64,000 nucleotides of DNA from Anaerococcus murdochii (GTDB lineage: Bacteria; Bacillota; Clostridia; Tissierellales; Peptoniphilaceae), in assembly GCF_019957155.1 (NCBI RefSeq), contig NZ_JAIPME010000002.1, forward strand, positions 1,798,001-1,862,000, written 5' to 3'. How positions within the stretch are numbered: position 1 is the first letter of the stretch; each line of letters begins with the position of its first letter. This document shows, piece by piece, positions 47,935 through 56,342 of this stretch. Under the pieces are notes generated by a model. That model was given only the letters and a program-made list of their open reading frames with translations. It did not search any database and was not told the origin of the DNA. A program made the translations under genes and the position numbers.

Positions 47935-47970
47935 AAAAAGCCATCGTAGATATTCTACGATGACTTTTTT
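47935..47970. terminator. Bidirectional terminator between rodA and the V-ATPase operon
   Basis: A near-perfect stem CCATCGTAGA/TCTACGATGA with AAAAAG before and a long T-run after; ends both converging transcripts. Confidence 0.88.
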
Positions 47971-48581
47971 TCTTTATTTTTCTTTACAATTTTTGTCTTT
48001 GAGAATTCTTCTCTTTCTTTTTCTTCTATGCTTTGAGAAATATTCTTTATTAAATCAGTTTTATTTGGTATCTGAATCTTTTCTAGACTGTTTACTTTTT
48101 TATTAGCTTTTCTAATCTCAATTTCTAGGTTATTTATTGTACTATCAAGCTCGGCGAGTTTAAAAAGATCAGACCTTAATTTATTAAAGTCAATCAAAGC
48201 CTTATCCAACAAGGCATTAGTCTGATAAAACGAATAAGAAAGAGTTAATTTTTTATCTTCAAACTCAATCTCTGCTATATCTGTTTGCATAAATTTACTT
48301 GTGGATAATTTAATAGAATTATCAATAGGAATAAGGCCTGCAAGGTTTTCTAGCTTTTCCTCACCAATACTGGCTAACGCCTTGTTAAAACTGTGGCTTA
48401 CCTTGGCCATGGTTTCATTAACTTTAATATTTAAATTGTCCCTATCCTTAATTTTGCTGTCGTGAGCATTCATCAAGGCCTTTCTCTTCTTGTCAAGAAT
48501 ATCAAGACCGACTTCTAGAAGCTTAAGTTCATCCTTGGCTTTTATTAAATTCGCTTTGCTTGCTATAGCGTCATTATTCAT
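47955..48581 (-). CDS. ntpD: V-type ATP synthase/ATPase subunit D
   Basis: Central rotor shaft of the V1 part. 208 residues, normal. The N-terminal part [32 protein letters not shown] and a long C-terminal helix form the antiparallel coiled coil typical of subunit D. It ends with a Lys-rich tail. ATG 48581 overlaps subunit B by a few bases; the TTG before it lacks support. Last gene of the operon; B-D order is normal. Confidence 0.94.
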
Positions 48582-49947
48582 CAATCTTACCTATAAATTT
48601 GTCTAGATTTTTCTCAGATACCCTGTGTAGTTCAGTCCTTGGTAGAATTTTTAATATATCCCAAGCAAGGTCTAGACTTTCTTCTAATTCCCTATTTTCA
48701 TTTTGTCCCTGGGCTAGGAATTTATTTTCAAATACTTCACCAAATTCAAGGTACTTTTTATCTATTTCTGATAAGTCTTCCTCACCTACAATTTGGGCTA
48801 TATTTCTTACATCAATTACCTTTGAATATGACTCATAAAGCTGATTCATAACATCTTCATGGTCTGCCCTAGTATAGCCTTCACCTATACCATCTTTCAT
48901 GAGCCTTGAAAGTGAAGGTAGGACGTTAATTGGTGGATAAACACCCTTGCTTGATAGACCCCTATCAATAACAATTTGGCCTTCTGTAATATATCCTGTA
49001 AGGTCAGGTACTGGATGGGTTATATCATCGTTTGGCATTGTTAAAATTGGAATAAGGGTTACTGATCCCTTAACACCTTCAATCATGCCAGCTCTTTCAT
49101 AAAGACTTGCAAGGTTAGAGTAAAGATAACCTGGATAGCCCTTCCTTGATGGGATTTCGCCCCTTATTGAAGATACTTCTCTTAAAGCTTCACAATATGA
49201 AGTCATATCGGTGATTATTACAAGAACGTGATAGCCTTTTTTGTAGGCTAAATATTCTGCTGCTGTAAGAGCGCACTTAGGTGCAAGAAGTCTTTCCATA
49301 ATTGGAGAATCTGCCAAGTTTTGGTACATAACTAACTTATCTTTTACACCTGCCTTTGAAAAAGCATCTTCAAAGAACATTGCTTCGTCTTTTTTAATTC
49401 CCATAGCAGCGAAAACAAAAGCGAAATCTTCGTCTGTTTTAAGTTTTGCTTGCCTAATAATTTGCGCTGCTATCTCGTTATGAGGAAGACCAGAGCCTGA
49501 AAATATAGGAAGCTTTTGGCCACGGATGAGGGTTGTAAGTGTATCTATAGCAGAAATTCCTGTTTGTATAAAGTCTCTTGGGTATTCTCTCGCAACTGGA
49601 TTTAAGGCAAGGCCTTCAACTGGATATGTTTCGTCTGAATAAATATCGCCGCCATTATCTATAGGCTCACCTATACCATTGAATGTTCTTCCTAAGATAT
49701 TTTCATTCAATGGTAATTCAAGTGGTTTTTCATGGAAACTAACAACTATATCATCTATAGAAAAGTTATCAGTGTTGGCATAAACTTCTATTGTAACAGT
49801 ATCTTCATTAACCATTACTACAGAACCAACAAATTCCATTCCTTCTGCATGAACAGATACCAGAGAGTTATAAGCTATATCAGAAACTTTTTCAACTTCA
49901 ATTATTGACGATTCAATTTTTTTAATCTTAGTATATTCTTTTCTCAA
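48574..49947 (-). CDS. ntpB: V-type ATPase subunit B
   Basis: Non-catalytic nucleotide-binding subunit that alternates with A in the V1 hexamer. The P-loop position is degenerate as expected ([12 protein letters not shown]), followed by [37 protein letters not shown] and the [13 protein letters not shown] region. I set the start at TTG 49947 because AGGGGG lies 7 nt upstream and homologues begin near [13 protein letters not shown]; the ATG upstream at 49983 is inside the A gene. 457 residues. 4 nt after subunit A. Confidence 0.93.
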
Positions 49948-49951
49948 TAGC

Positions 49952-51694
49952 CTACCCCCTAACTCTTGCAAAATGATTTTCAATTTGTGAACTTAGATCA
50001 TTAAGTTTTTCAATCTTATCATTTTCTACGTTGTATTTCATTTGGCTTATGTCATTTAATAAAGATGAGCTATAAAATTTATTATATGAAATATTATCTT
50101 TTAAAGCCGCCTTACTTAGGTCATAGTACTTTTCAATGACATCTAGCATCATTATTTGCTTTTTGACTGGTACATACTTATCAGTATAATTATAAGCATT
50201 TTGTTGCAAGAAACCATTCCTAATTAAACTTGCTACATCAAGTATATTCTTCTGCTCATCTGATAGGGCATCAGATCCAACAAGCATCATAATTGACTTA
50301 ACTTCTTCTTCATCAATTAGAACATTCATTAATTTATTTCTTACGCCAATGATATCTGAATTATAGGTTTCTTTATAAAAATCTCTTATCTTATCTAGGT
50401 AGTTTGTATAAGATGTAAGCCAGTTTATAGCTGGATAATGTCTAGAATAAGCAAGTTTTCTATCAAGACCTAAAAATACATTTACTGAACGTCTTGTAGC
50501 TTCTGTTACAGGTTCTGAAAAGTCTCCACCAGATGGAGAAACCGCACCAATCAAGGTAACCGATCCCTTAGTTCCGTTTAGGTTTTCAAAATATCCTGCT
50601 CTTTCATAAAACTTCGAAAGCCTAGATGCAAGATAAGCTGGGTAACCTTCTTCAGCCGGAATTTCTTCTAGCCTTGCAGATATTTCCCTAAGAGCTTCTG
50701 CCCACCTAGATGTAGAGTCAGCCATAAGGGCAACATCATAGCCCATATCTCTATAATACTCAGCAATAGTTATACCTGTATAGATACTAGCTTCCCTCGC
50801 TGCCACCGGCATATTGGAAGTATTTGCGATAAGGATTGTCCTTTGCATAAGGTCCTTGCCAGTATTTGGATCTATAAGATCAGGGAATTCCTCAAGAACT
50901 TGAGTCATCTCATTTCCCCTCTCTCCACAACCGATGTAAACAATAATATCAACATCAGAATATTGGGCTAATTGGTGTTGGAGCATAGTCTTTCCTGTAC
51001 CAAATCCGCCGGGAATTGCAACGGTACCACCCTTAGCAATTGGGAAAAATACATCCAAAACTCTTTGACCTGTTACAAGTAAATTCTTAAGACTTAAAGC
51101 CTTTTTAACCGGTCTTGGATTTCTAACTGGCCAGTATTGATAAAGTTTAAGCTCATGGATGCCTTCATCATTTTCAACCTTTAAAATAGTATCTTCAAGC
51201 CTATAAAGCCCATCTTCCTTGGCTTCGATTATAGTACCTTCGACATTTGATAAAAGTCTGTGGTCTATAACCTCAGTTTCCTTGATTGTAGCGTATATAT
51301 CAGATTTTTTGATTTTATCGCCAACTTTGAATTTGATTTTTACATCCCATTGTTTTTCAAGGTTAAGATTATCAAAACCAATTCCAGATGGAATAAAGGC
51401 CCCGTGTTTGTCCATAATATCCTTAAGCGGTCTTTCAATACCGTCAAACATATTACCGAGTAGACCCGGACCTAACCTTACTGATAAGGGCATGGATGTT
51501 GAAATAATATCTTCGCCGACCTTAAGGCCTGAAGTATCTTCATATACCTGAATTGTAGCTATATCACCGTCAACTGATATAACTTCGCCAATTAGCTTTA
51601 ATCCTCCAACAGAGACCATCTCTTTTATCTTAAGACTCCTAGCATTTTTGGCATAAACTACTGGCCCATTTATTGTCTTAATTATTGGATTCAT
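49952..51694 (-). CDS. ntpA: V-type ATPase catalytic subunit A
   Basis: Catalytic ATPase subunit. Begins [24 protein letters not shown], has the large bulge domain, P-loop [51 protein letters not shown] and [16 protein letters not shown]. 580 residues, full length. Start at ATG 51694 matches homologues; it overlaps the E gene by 17 nt and longer in-frame starts would run inside E. The ribosome site is modest (AGTGAGAG). Confidence 0.96.
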
Positions 51695-52283
51695 TAAAAC
51701 TCTCACTTTCAAGAACTTGGTATAGTTTTTTACCAAATTCATACTTATTTTCTCTAATTTTTTGCCTATAAGTAAAGTTATATCTAAATTCCTTATTGAT
51801 ATCAATAAGCATAAAGCCTCCGATATTTGTTTTTTCGATACTTTCTGTATGCTTAAAATCAATCAAATTTAAATCTTCATCTACAACAGCAACTATAATC
51901 TCATCTTCATTTAGGCCTAGGCTTTTAATTTTGCCTTCTATTTCCTTTTGAAGCTTATCTTTATAATCGCTTGTCTTCCTATAGGCTTTCAATTTATCTG
52001 TTAATTTTTCATAAAAATCATCAAGCAATTGCTCTTTATAAGCAAAAAACCTATTTTTTTCATCTTGGCTAATTTTAGAAATCTCTTCATTTTTTCTTAT
52101 TTCTAGAAATACATCCCTATCTTTAACTTTTTTCTCAAAATCTTCCTTGCGGGACTCATTTTTACTATCTAAAAATGAAGAATTTCTTTCAGTGGATTGG
52201 AATAATTCTTGGTCAGTTTTTTCCTTTTCTTCATCCCAAACCATCTTTCTAAAGCTTGATAATTTTGCTTCTATATCTAGCAT
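51678..52283 (-). CDS. ntpE: V-type ATPase subunit E
   Basis: Peripheral stalk subunit that pairs with a G/H subunit to hold the catalytic head. 201 residues. The N-terminal half is a long, charged helix (from about 5 to 110) that would form the EG coiled coil; the C-terminal half (EIIVAVVDEDL, IGGFMLIDINKEFRYNFTYRQKI) is the globular head-binding domain. Start after AAGGAT, 11 nt behind the F stop. Position between F and A differs from the more usual I-K-E-C-F-A-B-D order. Confidence 0.9.
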   Translation of the reverse strand: MLDIEAKLSSFRKMVWDEEKEKTDQELFQSTERNSSFLDSKNESRKEDFEKKVKDRDVFLEIRKNEEISKISQDEKNRFFAYKEQLLDDFYEKLTDKLKAYRKTSDYKDKLQKEIEGKIKSLGLNEDEIIVAVVDEDLNLIDFKHTESIEKTNIGGFMLIDINKEFRYNFTYRQKIRENKYEFGKKLYQVLESESFNESNN

Positions 52284-52294
52284 ATTATATCCTT

Positions 52295-52531
52295 TCAGCC
52301 ATCAATGGTAACTATCAAAGGCATGGAATTATCTTTCCTAAAATTATCAATTTTGATAGAATTTTTTTGATAAACAGATCTAGTTACAATTAATATCGCA
52401 AGATTCTCATCATCGATTGATTTATCAAAAACTTTTTCAAAATTATTAGTAGAAACTAATTCTCCTTCAATCGCACCAAGTCTAAACATTGTTAACAAGC
52501 TATTTGAATCTGTTAAAATCTTCGCTTTCAT
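52295..52531 (-). CDS. ntpF: V-type ATPase subunit F, shortened at the C-terminus
   Basis: Small rotor subunit bound to D. 78 residues compared with about 100-105 normally. The Rossmann-like core is complete (MKAKILTDSNSLLTMFRLGAIEG..., LAILIVTRSVYQKN, MPLIVTIDG), but the protein stops right after the last beta strand, so the C-terminal helix that normally touches the D coiled coil is missing. Subunit E begins 11 nt later, with no remnant of the lost part. The location in the operon supports the call. Symbols for this subunit differ between organisms. Confidence 0.85.
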   Translation of the reverse strand: MKAKILTDSNSLLTMFRLGAIEGELVSTNNFEKVFDKSIDDENLAILIVTRSVYQKNSIKIDNFRKDNSMPLIVTIDG

Positions 52532-52532
52532 C

Positions 52533-52964
52533 TTATGCGTTTAGGATCATGATTGAAATGATAACACCAAAGATAGCTATACCTTCGGCAAGACCTACGA
52601 ATATGATTGTCCTACCAAGGATAGATTGGTCTTCAGAAATAGCACCAAGAGCTGCAGAACCAACTGTACCTACGGCATATCCTGTACCAATAGCTGCAAG
52701 ACCTGTTGAAAGAGCTGCACCTATATATTTAAGTCCATCAGATGCTGCTTGAGCTGTAGCTGCACCTTCTGCAGCTTTTGAAGCAGATGGAATCATAAGT
52801 ACAACTATCATTAACATAACTGGCACAAAGGTAAATAAATTCATCTTTAATGCTTTAGAAATTTTTGCTTTTGATGGGTCTTCATTGTTCTTTAATAAGT
52901 ATAAACCTGAATAAATTGTTATTATTACTACTGCTAATGCTAGCATTGCTGTATATTTAATCAT
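52533..52964 (-). CDS. ntpK: V-type ATPase membrane rotor subunit K
   Basis: Ring-forming c-type subunit that carries the ion. 143 residues. The C-terminal hairpin is a classic c subunit: Gly/Ala-rich helix KYIGAALSTGLAAIGTGYAVG, the SAALGAISEDQ loop and FVGLAEGIAIFGVIISIMIL with the ion-binding Glu. The N-terminal hairpin (about 1-60) lacks these Gly motifs and a Glu, so there is one ion site per subunit; a SASKAAEGAATA segment between the hairpins could be a processing region. AAGGAGAT ribosome site. Ion type (Na+ or H+) not decidable here. Confidence 0.92.
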   Translation of the reverse strand: MIKYTAMLALAVVIITIYSGLYLLKNNEDPSKAKISKALKMNLFTFVPVMLMIVVLMIPSASKAAEGAATAQAASDGLKYIGAALSTGLAAIGTGYAVGTVGSAALGAISEDQSILGRTIIFVGLAEGIAIFGVIISIMILNA

Positions 52965-52975
52965 AATATCTCCTT

Positions 52976-54337
52976 TTATTTACTTTCTTTAATTGGTCTG
53001 AATTTACGACCATTTCCTTGATAATATTTACTAAACATCTCATAAAACTCTAGTCTCAAGCCTTGGATAAAGACTATCATGCCTTCAAGCCCAATGATTA
53101 AGATATTTCCTAGAATTAATATAATTAGTCCCTTAATTCCTCCGCCTGCGATTTTACTCATAACTTCAAATGCCATGTATAAACCAACGTGGTTTATAGC
53201 AAAGGCTCCTACCCTTGTAAAAGATACAAGATTTGAAAATACAGATAGAAGTGCTTCTATTATCGAAAATGAACTTTCAACATAATAGTCGAAAGCACTT
53301 GATTCAAAAACTTCATCTCTCTTTTCAATTTTAGCTGCGATTGGTCTTGAAAATACAATCATAACTATTGAAGCAAGCAAAATTACTAAACCTACTGTTT
53401 TGGGTAGAGGATTTACTTTGACAATATTCAGAATTAGCAAAACAAATGAAGTCATCATCATAAGTCCTGCTATACCTTCCTTGCCAAAGATACCTTCTTC
53501 AATATTCTTTTGCTTAACAAGTTTATTATAAATTCCTATAAAATAGGATATTACAAGTAGTCCTATACCAAAGGCCACTGAAGCAATAAGGACTTTCATA
53601 ATATTATCAAATGGCTTGATAAGTATAGCAGGTATTAGGGTTTCTATACCAAATACTGAACCATACATCATTCCAAAGAAACATGCTGAAAATCCTACTC
53701 TTCTTATTAGGGCACCAAAAGTTTTGTTTTTTTTGTCAACTAAAAAACTTAAGAGAACAAAAACCAAACCTTGGCCTAAGTCACCAAACATCATTCCATA
53801 CAAGAGCATGTATGATACTGCAAAAAATGGAGTTGGATCTATTTCGTTATAATTTGGTGCCCCATACATGTTTACCAAAAATTCAAACGGCCTAAATAAT
53901 TTATTATTTTTAAGTTTTGTAGGAGGTTCTTGATTTGACTCCTCCTTGACTGTAACTATTGTATCATCATATTTATTTGATAAATTTTCAAAATCTTTAA
54001 TTTTTGAGTCAGGAACCCAACCAGATAGATAAAGGTATTTATCTCCCTTAGCCATTTTTGCAACTAATTCATCACTTTTTTCATAATATTCCAAAGAATT
54101 AGATAAGTTATCAACAACATCTTTATTTTTAGATCTGATGTCTTGTATACTTGTTTCTAATGATTTTAGTTCTGAATCAATGTCGCCTAGGTCTTTATTT
54201 ATAGTTAGTAAATCCTCATCAGGAATTTCTTTATCAATAAAGCCCATCGTATTAACAGCTCTTCCTATATCTTCCTTAACCTGCTTAGGGTAAACTAACA
54301 AATAATTTTCTTTTGATTTTTTTACCTTATCTGTCAT
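52976..54337 (-). CDS. ntpI: V-type ATPase subunit I, second half (membrane part)
   Basis: Stator subunit forming the ion channel with the K ring. 453 residues instead of about 640-660. It begins in the middle of the cytoplasmic domain (NYLLVYPKQVKEDIGRAVNTMGF aligns to the second half of the lobe), has the returning helix (SLETSIQDIRSKNKD), LYLSGWVPDSKI, then PTKLKNNKLFRPFEFLVNMYG, DPTPFFAVSYMLLYGMMFGDLGQG and about seven membrane segments with FTRVGAFAINHVGLYMAFE. ATG follows the stop of the first-half gene directly (TAAATG, same frame) and has its own AAAGGGGG. So this is a true split, not a frameshift. Confidence 0.88.
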   Translation of the reverse strand: MTDKVKKSKENYLLVYPKQVKEDIGRAVNTMGFIDKEIPDEDLLTINKDLGDIDSELKSLETSIQDIRSKNKDVVDNLSNSLEYYEKSDELVAKMAKGDKYLYLSGWVPDSKIKDFENLSNKYDDTIVTVKEESNQEPPTKLKNNKLFRPFEFLVNMYGAPNYNEIDPTPFFAVSYMLLYGMMFGDLGQGLVFVLLSFLVDKKNKTFGALIRRVGFSACFFGMMYGSVFGIETLIPAILIKPFDNIMKVLIASVAFGIGLLVISYFIGIYNKLVKQKNIEEGIFGKEGIAGLMMMTSFVLLILNIVKVNPLPKTVGLVILLASIVMIVFSRPIAAKIEKRDEVFESSAFDYYVESSFSIIEALLSVFSNLVSFTRVGAFAINHVGLYMAFEVMSKIAGGGIKGLIILILGNILIIGLEGMIVFIQGLRLEFYEMFSKYYQGNGRKFRPIKESK

Positions 54338-55219
54338 TTAATCCCCCTTTACAATCATATCAAAGGCATAATCAACTAGAGAATCTACTTCCTTGTTATA
54401 AACAATAGATATATCATCCTTTAGCTTATTATAATCACTCTTGATTTTTTTACTTTGTTCTGCTATTTCTCCATCATATTTTGAATTTATCTTAATGATT
54501 TCATCTTGAATCATATTAGAATATTTAGTATCAATCCTAGATGCTACTTTTAGACTTTCTTCTCTTTCGCTAACGATTATATTGTCAACTTCTTCACGCC
54601 TAATCCTAGTTTTCTTATCTAGTTCGATAATTTCGTTTAAGGCATCAGCGGATTTTTTTGCCTCGCTATCTAGATGGATAATTAGGGACGGTATATTTTC
54701 ATAATTATTTTTAAGAATAAACCTACCATCCTTAGATACTTCACCATATCTGTAATCAAAATATTTTAATTGTCTTATTTTATTTATATCAATATCAGCC
54801 TTATCAAGCACTTCTAAGTTGGCCTTGAAATTTAAAAGTTCTTTTCTTTTTTCAAGTAACTCTTCTCTTCTCTTTATAAGAGGCGCTAAATCTTCATATA
54901 ATTCTTCTAGTCTTTCTCTAGAAATTACTTTTTGATTATAATTTAAATTTTCATCATCATGAATTTCTAGAAATTTCTTTAGATAATTCATTTTTTCATT
55001 ATCAGACTTAGAAAGGCCATCAAAACTTTTAATATTGTTCATATCTTCAGTAAGTTCTACATTTTCTGTACTTGCGGTTACTGAAAAAGCTCTGCTGGCT
55101 ACTTGATTGAAAGCATCAATTGGTTCAATTTGACCTATATCTACCACATCTAAGAGCAAATCATTAAGATTATCTAACTTAGATGTAATATTTACCAGGT
55201 GCATTTTTTCTACTGCCAT
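54338..55219 (-). CDS. V-type ATPase subunit I, first half, with a G/H-like helical tail
   Basis: 293 residues. The start (VEKMHLVNITSKLDNLNDLL..IGQIEPIDAF) and the following helix and lobe (to about YRYGEVSKDGRF and IPSLIIHLDSE, near residue 185) match the N-terminal part of subunit I. From about 190 to the end it is a highly charged, continuous helix ending DYAFDMIVKGD; this resembles peripheral-stalk subunit G/H, whose end often reads like 'AV.LIVE.IVG'. No other G/H gene is in the operon. No internal start codon in frame lies at the tail border, so the tail can only be made as a fusion. Assignment of the tail is inference from composition, length and context. Confidence 0.72.
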   Translation of the reverse strand: MAVEKMHLVNITSKLDNLNDLLLDVVDIGQIEPIDAFNQVASRAFSVTASTENVELTEDMNNIKSFDGLSKSDNEKMNYLKKFLEIHDDENLNYNQKVISRERLEELYEDLAPLIKRREELLEKRKELLNFKANLEVLDKADIDINKIRQLKYFDYRYGEVSKDGRFILKNNYENIPSLIIHLDSEAKKSADALNEIIELDKKTRIRREEVDNIIVSEREESLKVASRIDTKYSNMIQDEIIKINSKYDGEIAEQSKKIKSDYNKLKDDISIVYNKEVDSLVDYAFDMIVKGD

Positions 55220-55221
55220 AT

Positions 55222-56202
55222 TTACCTTCCTATTAACAACTCTTCTTTTTGGCTATAAGTGTATTTATCATCCATTTCCAAAATAGCTATAAGATTTTTC
55301 ATATTTAAGTATAAAATATTCATTGCAGAAATTATATAGAGTATATCAGATCTTTCTTTGATTATTTCATCTTTGAAATTCTTAAGCCTCTTATCCTGCA
55401 TTTTTTTATAAAATAGATTCTCATCTTCAAATATATTTTTATACTTAGTATCCTTAAAATATTCCATAAGCTCATCTTTACTAAAATCAGATAACATTTT
55501 TAGTCTTTGACCATTATATAGATAACCGCCTTCAATTAAGTAATTAAAAATCTCACTATTATTTACATCAAAGAATGATTTAAGCCTATAAAGCATTTCA
55601 AAGTTGAGCAAATTTATCTCTTCTGCTAAGAAATTTTTAATAAGTTTCGATTCTTTTGATGGAAATTTTTCACTTATTTTTAAAAGCTCCCTATAATAAG
55701 ATTTTATAAGAGCATTTGACGATAAAAATATAATAGAATCCTTATCCATATTTTCATTTAAAAAAGGTTCAAGGACTCGCTTTATATGGTAATCATCAAG
55801 ACTTTCTATAAAATCTTTAAAACTTGTATCTAGATTAAGACTCATTGCCTTATAGTATGGATTATTTCTAAAATATCCCAAATTCTCAGCCAAAGATCCA
55901 TTTAAAATGCTTGTTATTATTTCTTGTATCAAATATATTTTGAAAATAGAAAAATACAGCTGGTAAAACTTTTTTTCTAGACCTGTTAGAAAATATTCTA
56001 GACTCCTAAGTTCTTTATAGAAGTGCGTACGCAGTTTATCTTCTAAGATAATCTTTTCATCATCTGCACTTAAAAAGTCATAGTTTTTTCTAAGATAACT
56101 AGCCTTAGCTGATAGATTATCTTCCCTTATCAAGCCATCTAACAAATCATTATCTAAAACATATGATAGTTTTGCTTTGGCTTTTACAGAAACATCTTTC
56201 AT
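55222..56202 (-). CDS. ntpC: V-type ATPase subunit C
   Basis: Links the rotor shaft to the K ring (subunit C of bacterial/archaeal type, d in eukaryotes). 326 residues, mostly helical, with KAKLSYVLDNDLLDGLI at the start and a repeat-like three-domain helical funnel; ALIKSYYRELLKIS and NFLAEEINLLNFEMLYRLK are typical. AAGGAGG before the ATG. It is the first gene of the operon here, which is unusual; in most relatives it lies between E and F. The 140-nt gap upstream contains the miaB terminator and AT-rich DNA with a TAAAAT-like -10 but no convincing -35. Confidence 0.87.
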   Translation of the reverse strand: MKDVSVKAKAKLSYVLDNDLLDGLIREDNLSAKASYLRKNYDFLSADDEKIILEDKLRTHFYKELRSLEYFLTGLEKKFYQLYFSIFKIYLIQEIITSILNGSLAENLGYFRNNPYYKAMSLNLDTSFKDFIESLDDYHIKRVLEPFLNENMDKDSIIFLSSNALIKSYYRELLKISEKFPSKESKLIKNFLAEEINLLNFEMLYRLKSFFDVNNSEIFNYLIEGGYLYNGQRLKMLSDFSKDELMEYFKDTKYKNIFEDENLFYKKMQDKRLKNFKDEIIKERSDILYIISAMNILYLNMKNLIAILEMDDKYTYSQKEELLIGR

Positions 56203-56313
56203 AAAACCTCCTTCCTAACAAACTATATTTTACCCGATAATTTTTCATAAAAAAGCTTTGAAAACACTTAATATAAAACATATATAAAATATTATTTACA
56301 AAACTTTCTAACA

Positions 56314-56340
56314 AATTAAAAACCCCAGCCAAGGCCGGGA
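56314..56340 (-). terminator. Terminator after miaB
   Basis: GC-rich hairpin CCCGGC/GCTGGG with a 4-nt loop followed by six Ts on the minus strand; separates miaB from the V-ATPase operon. Confidence 0.85.
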
Positions 56341-56342
56341 TT

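Follow-up and report, generated by a model that had tools for sequence, protein, structure and literature searches.

A stalk subunit fused into a split subunit I in the V/A-type ATPase operon of Anaerococcus

Introduction

The stators of rotary ATPases are strongly conserved, and two peripheral stalks on one arm are the standing arrangement in V/A-type enzymes. A different gene arrangement is found in the stretch of the Anaerococcus murdochii genome analysed here (GCF_019957155.1, NZ_JAIPME010000002.1), where subunit I of a V/A-type ATPase is divided between two open reading frames (ORFs), the first of which carries the stalk subunit (G/H) as a tail. The whole stretch of 64,000 nucleotides (nt) is called the window, and all coordinates are window positions. 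The closest described system, the V/A-ATPase of Thermus thermophilus, has a stator of composition a1E2G2, with an arm made of two lobes and a coiled coil and with the EG tips at different sites of that arm (in parts of PMC7367684 and PMC5758568). The Anaerococcus enzyme has the same subunit set and a two-lobed arm, whereas in the Thermus enzyme, as presented in those parts, I is one chain and G a separate protein.

Another covalent union is the b-delta fusion of the mycobacterial F-ATP synthase, where a stalk helix is fused to a stator part together with a duplicated domain (in part of PMC8617483). The likeness is one of logic alone, namely a covalent stalk-stator fusion with a duplicated domain; the mycobacterial enzyme is F-type, joins b to delta and keeps its membrane stator subunit unsplit, whereas the window enzyme is V/A-type. 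Unfused operons elsewhere in the family and the order share the C-I-K-F-E-A-B-D arrangement and a homologous stalk gene, but there the stalk gene is free and upstream of C, and I is an intact protein of ~650 amino acids (aa). Among the papers listed by searches of open-licence full texts in PubMed Central (PMC), none reports a split or stalk-fused subunit I as judged by title or the start of the abstract, although a report elsewhere is possible; passages of PMC5706428 hold nothing on such a fusion.

A subunit I gene cut within its cytoplasmic arm

The operon lies on the minus strand in the gene order C, ORF1, ORF2, K, F, E, A, B, D. ORF1 (54338-55219, minus strand, 293 aa) and ORF2 (52976-54337, minus strand, 453 aa) abut in one frame (...GTA AAG GGG GAT TAA ATG ACA...). 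An earlier reading made from the sequence alone had described two same-frame genes parted only by TAA-ATG, the second with its own ribosome-binding-like run, and both features are there: the TAA stop of ORF1 occupies 54338..54340, and the run AAAGGGGG (54343-54350) lies within the last codons of ORF1 and ends five bases ahead of the ATG of ORF2.

ORF2 is recognised by PF01496 (4.1e-27) and by NCBIfam subunit I models (down to 1.5e-51), the best of which it matches from model position 192 onward; its bit scores stay under the NCBIfam cut-offs, as is to be expected of a partial chain. ORF1 has no significant match to Pfam, NCBIfam or solved structures: searched alone, it finds nothing in Pfam, to which it is invisible because it is too diverged, and one NCBIfam subunit I model at E=0.41. 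Its residues 1-183 (54671..55219), called I-N, form the first half of the cytoplasmic arm and end in the strand ..ENIPSLIIHL, as indicated by the match of an ORF1 profile (A4) to the N-terminus of unsplit subunit I and by an alignment across the break. In this alignment the cut in subunit I falls on a short turn within the arm, and no more than that turn is removed. ORF2 carries the second half of the arm, here called the half-arm, in residues 10-139 (53921..54310; single copy in the window, defined by a half-arm hidden Markov model (HMM) and a tree of the copies), followed by the membrane part of subunit I (52979..53920; PF01496 and NCBIfam subunit I).

Subunit I, usually one polypeptide, is thus encoded here by two ORFs with a stop between them, and the N-terminal half and the returning half together supply its cytoplasmic arm. 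The two ORFs sum to 746 aa, ~96 aa over the unsplit relatives, as an insert of ~100 residues would give and as the earlier estimate of about 100 surplus residues implied. That reading had also divided ORF1 into an N-terminal part of subunit I, reaching to a strand, and a tail of ~100 residues. The break alignment bears this out, and in an AlphaFold2 (AF2) model the tail is predicted to be one continuous helix (residues 188-289), with a predicted local distance difference test (pLDDT) score of 58-77 by blocks, down to 41 at the end. This model and a second one, of the A. nagyae ORF2, are of low confidence, with pLDDT 60 and 58 and predicted template modelling scores (pTM) of 0.36 and 0.31.

The tail is homologous to a free stalk gene

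The identity of the tail (ORF1 residues ~192-291; 54347..54646, minus strand) emerges from the operons of eleven relatives that do not belong to the fused clade. In ten of them a free gene of ~105 codons is found among the ORFs directly upstream of C, and in the eleventh (G058) a profile search recovers it. An HMM built on nine free genes (A2), run against the whole genome that holds the window, gave one significant match, the ORF1 tail (E=3.6e-10; next E=1.57). When the tails from nine genomes, window included (A3), were compared with the free genes by hhalign, the match reached 98.8% over 102 columns, against 0.1-1.7% for reversed or column-shuffled tails. At the sequence level these results argue strongly for the link between tail and free gene.

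The link onward to canonical subunit H is less direct. A canonical set was drawn from the second V-ATPase operon of family members (26 places listed; n=21, of which 20 are usable and one is a mis-picked 15-residue piece). In profile-profile comparison the free genes match it at 79.4%, free genes and tails together at 85.4% over 107 columns, and tails alone at 30.0% over 55 columns, with controls at 5.3% (E), 0.4% (D) and 2.0% (reversed H). Since the tails alone reach just 30.0%, the family is tied to canonical H mainly via the free genes. The tail is not among the matches of TIGR02926 at E<=10, and the cut-off of this model is reached by 0 proteins in 61 family genomes; one free homologue, P0313, is labelled V-type ATP synthase subunit H in UniRef. 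Against solved structures, A2 returned apolipoprotein and other coiled-coil matches (best 0.0015), and V-ATPase G at E=5.2, which was not used.

Collectively, the proposal that a G/H gene has been fused within subunit I holds at the gene level. Along its full length the tail is homologous to the relatives' free operon gene, which itself resembles canonical H in profile comparison; this free gene is absent from the fused-clade stretches inspected, and the break costs subunit I a short turn at most. The proposal had assumed that a small G/H gene usually precedes I, which needs correction: where relatives have this type of operon, the free gene stands ahead of C and not of I, and the corresponding site in the window (56203..56342, minus strand) holds none by ORFs or free-gene profile. 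The description of the G/H gene as missing is right for this operon, which has no free copy, but not for the genome, where a second, separate V-ATPase operon (G000:C2 ~641-650 kb, L047) encodes its own canonical 107-aa H, placed before I, and a 640-aa I. Of the two features that together would speak against the proposal, one is thus present, a separate H, though in another V-ATPase operon, and there is no sign of the second, a tail folded within subunit I.

Distribution and maintenance of the fused form

A search with A4 over 130 family genomes found the fused form at full length in 33, of which 31 belong to the genus and two are metagenome-assembled genomes (MAGs) of a sister genus, g33. In 45 genomes there were two separate matches, the first half in a long subunit I ORF and the tail in a short ORF that lies 0.98-1.11 kb further upstream in that contig, with just room for C between them. 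The remainder comprised five genomes with the tail only, seven with the first half only, one contig-end fragment (G010, genus g11, whose operon is cut at contig ends and whose fusion is undecided) and 39 with nothing. ORF1 is present in 31/31 genus genomes, interrupted by stops in one (G120). The A4 matches that bear a name comprise 25 records of Anaerococcus, together with three MAGs of Peptoniphilaceae or Tissierellia. The 120 database homologues of ORF1 listed, out of 524, are all 290-295 aa long; the few names shown for them are hypothetical protein, subunit I domain-containing protein and subunit I, so that current annotation misses both split and fusion.

The 28 named loci and the window make up 29 loci, taken with up to 10 kb per side (3971 ORFs). 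Across them the free-gene profile finds the ORF1 tail alone and nothing else below E=0.3; consequently, no free copy lies near the operon, a statement that for the window extends to the whole genome. Among the matches listed, 249 genomes of the order gave no full-length fused match beyond the genus (g1) and g33, and 391 genomes of the class, with three genus members sampled (E<=1e-8), gave no further one. These wider searches returned long I ORFs and soluble arms, several with a separate tail-like gene. The best reading is that fusion and split arose in the ancestor of Anaerococcus and a sister genus.

Both genes are intact in 26 of the 29 loci, and a stop (TAA, TAG or TGA) separates the halves in every one of these 26, window included. 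The spacing between ORF1 and ORF2 ranges from overlap to 102 bases, and 7/26 pairs lie in different frames. Regulated read-through of the TAA is excluded in these seven pairs because of their frames; all three stop codons occur, and read-through is unlikely in the 19 same-frame pairs, to which the window belongs. The ratio of non-synonymous to synonymous substitution rates (dN/dS) was compared in seven species pairs, in several of which dS is saturated: the first half gives 0.06-0.18, the tail 0.06-0.33, the half-arms 0.03-0.26 and the membrane part 0.02-0.07. Both halves and the tail thus look to be under purifying selection. In the three other loci ORF2 is broken (L099, L104) or ORF1 is (L102); these are drafts of A. 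senegalensis, A. obesiensis and A. hydrogenalis, and the breaks may be sequencing slips.

Half-arm duplication and extra soluble arms

In eight of the 29 loci ORF2 is 585-687 aa long and contains two tandem copies of a 132-residue half-arm, as delimited by the half-arm HMM; in two more genomes (L021 and L022) it measures 608 aa. A tree of the copies groups copy 1 of six species in one clade (support 100), makes the two copies of Marseille-P3625 mutual closest relatives and sets copy 1 of a basal MAG apart (support 54). Given these placements, the duplication may have occurred one to three times, and more than one event is likely. A separate, rooted tree comprises 27 fused and three outgroup sequences; two broken ORF2s and five outgroups were left out of it (cut motif missing, or fragment). 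The extra copy has a dN/dS of 0.17 and 0.26 in two pairs. A model of the A. nagyae protein with both copies gives them a similar helix order, and a fold search with it matches V-ATPase a subunits; it is a single chain, from which the copy that docks cannot be read. The two 687-aa ORF2s (L094, L097) start with a stretch (GDYLQIQAQNVKDD..) that by eye resembles a decayed third copy. Among the matches listed in the family, order and class searches, none outside the fused clade has an open frame >684 aa, a length too short for a half-arm duplication of this kind.

More distant members of the order carry extra arms of another kind. All three genomes seen of genus g85 encode, between C and an intact I, an additional 344-aa subunit I arm without a membrane part (G233, L163:4464-5498; G232, L164:4703-5737; G234, L166, reverse strand), which in G233, the sole genome compared, is 43% identical to the arm of I. 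G220 encodes a 468-aa soluble arm with a G/H-like tail (L165:4778-6184), in addition to an intact I and a free G gene. The arm shares 42% identity with the I of G220 over 330 residues, and the tail shares 35% with the free stalk gene of that genome over 99 residues (pairwise E=1.4e-14). This tail is absent from the A2 HMM matches, but used as a query it retrieves the free genes of six relatives (1e-8 to 1e-12). In a search of 28 genomes of its family, a full-length arm-tail protein occurs in G220 alone. Like the window, G220 joins an arm to a G-like tail, but its arm is complete and membrane-less, with G at the C-terminal end. The G220 fusion is apparently independent of that in Anaerococcus.

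Proposed architecture

The fusion, the split, their conservation and the absence of the free gene are directly established by the genomes. Beyond them, the stator arm very probably consists of two polypeptides, with G/H fused at the distal-lobe turn and the stalk thereby covalently tethered to the arm. In the proposed history, a fusion in an ancestor placed the stalk gene within subunit I, at a short turn in the distal lobe, and subunit I was divided at that point. ORF1 would form the first half of the arm and run straight into the G helix, and ORF2 would restart at the next strand to provide the second half-arm and the membrane part. The two halves would reassemble non-covalently into the same lobe and the same coiled coil, and the G helix would pair with E. 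As this helix would grow with its N-terminus from the distal lobe, it would start where a stalk tip docks, since one EG tip binds the distal lobe in Thermus. The far end of a helix of ~100 residues would come to lie near the top of V1, too far away for the chain to lead back into the lobe; fusion and split would occur together for that reason.

The question of stoichiometry raised at the outset, with two stalks expected and one subunit I, is a real one, and the duplicated half-arms of the clade and the extra soluble arms of the order suggest how it may be solved. The likeliest source of the second stalk would be a second ORF1 copy in each complex. A two-armed stator, in which each peripheral stalk has its own arm and ORF1 is present twice per complex, can be put forward only tentatively. 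An ORF2 with tandem half-arms would then dock two ORF1 chains, giving two complete arms on one membrane subunit, and in other lineages the second arm would be a separate soluble protein, in one case fused to a stalk tail. The short form of the window type would be reduced or ancestral, its second I-N half lacking a partner of its own. The single half-arm of the window species is the main difficulty for one arm per stalk.

Alternative explanations

A helix added to subunit I need not be a stalk subunit. Charged helices look alike, no curated family recognises the tail and tails alone come to just 30% with canonical H, so that an unrelated helical extension might be suspected. This is very improbable given a profile match to the free gene that spans its full length and is the single significant one genome-wide, shuffled and reversed controls that fail, and a tail-like gene in the same operon of 45 relatives. 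Less credible still would be a stop produced by assembly or sequencing error, or a decaying gene. Although 3/29 loci have a broken ORF1 or ORF2, the arrangement recurs in 31/31 genomes with varied frames and stops, the listed homologues are of uniform length and dN/dS is low. Error and decay are refuted for the clade, and chance or a sequencing slip is ruled out by the 31 genomes, the stop in all 26 intact loci, the seven out-of-frame pairs and the low dN/dS.

Two other explanations accept the fusion and concern the assembled enzyme. The second stalk may differ from the first, one being the ORF1 fusion and the other containing the canonical H of the second operon, or there may be a single stalk; canonical H and the second operon are present in the genome, and the short forms have just one half-arm docking site. 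Against this stand unfused relatives, among them G005, G013, G019, G022, G025, G043, G052 and G058, that carry both canonical H and the free gene, which indicates that each operon has its own stalk gene; moreover, the two families are just distantly similar. Differing or single stalks are unlikely, if worth keeping in view. Alternatively, the fused chain could be a precursor from which proteolysis or an internal start frees the G helix, leaving ordinary stalks in the final enzyme; no new architecture would then be needed to account for the 2:1 stoichiometry. Near the linker, 17 of the 29 loci have one or more ATG, GTG or TTG codons, including a TTG downstream of TAAGGA in A. vaginalis, A. obesiensis, A. 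tetradius and SUG34. However, the window (residues 172-223) and ten other loci offer no candidate and one locus just ATT, and no site is shared across the clade, which makes an internal start improbable. The repeated half-arm duplication suggests, too, that the I-N halves matter, and release of G, by whichever route, is quite improbable.

Other genes of the operon

All further genes are on the minus strand; C, I, K, F and E were identified by family search, and A, B and D by eye. Subunit C (AC39; 55222..56202) matches PF01992 (5.5e-25) and subunit K (52533..52964) PF00137 (8.3e-16). Subunit E (51678..52283), the presumed coiled-coil partner of the tail, is assigned by PF01991 (3.6e-4, under the curated cut-off) and by position; the sequence-only reading spoke of an E pair, and a single E gene was found. 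Translation of subunit A (49952..51862) probably begins further downstream than the first codon listed, and subunits B (48574..49983) and D (47955..48584) complete the operon. Subunit F (52295..52531; PF01990, 4.8e-9) is short, with 78 aa. The short form recurs at three places (window 52295-52531; L048:9250-9489; L051, reverse strand): F has 78-79 aa in the two fused genomes inspected and 80 aa in G010, and it lacks the C-terminal segment. Six unfused relatives have an F of 101-107 aa. The unfused L052 also has a short F, of 83 aa.

Implications

In this clade evolution severed the arm of the stator at a single turn and attached a stalk there; the half-arm to which the fused chain would dock was copied afterwards, probably more than once, and distant relatives added whole spare arms. 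The sharing of load between stalk and arm thereby becomes testable, by chain counts and by structure. A naturally split and presumably self-assembling subunit I, with a stalk that has a built-in tether, may also be of use for engineering and for single-molecule work.
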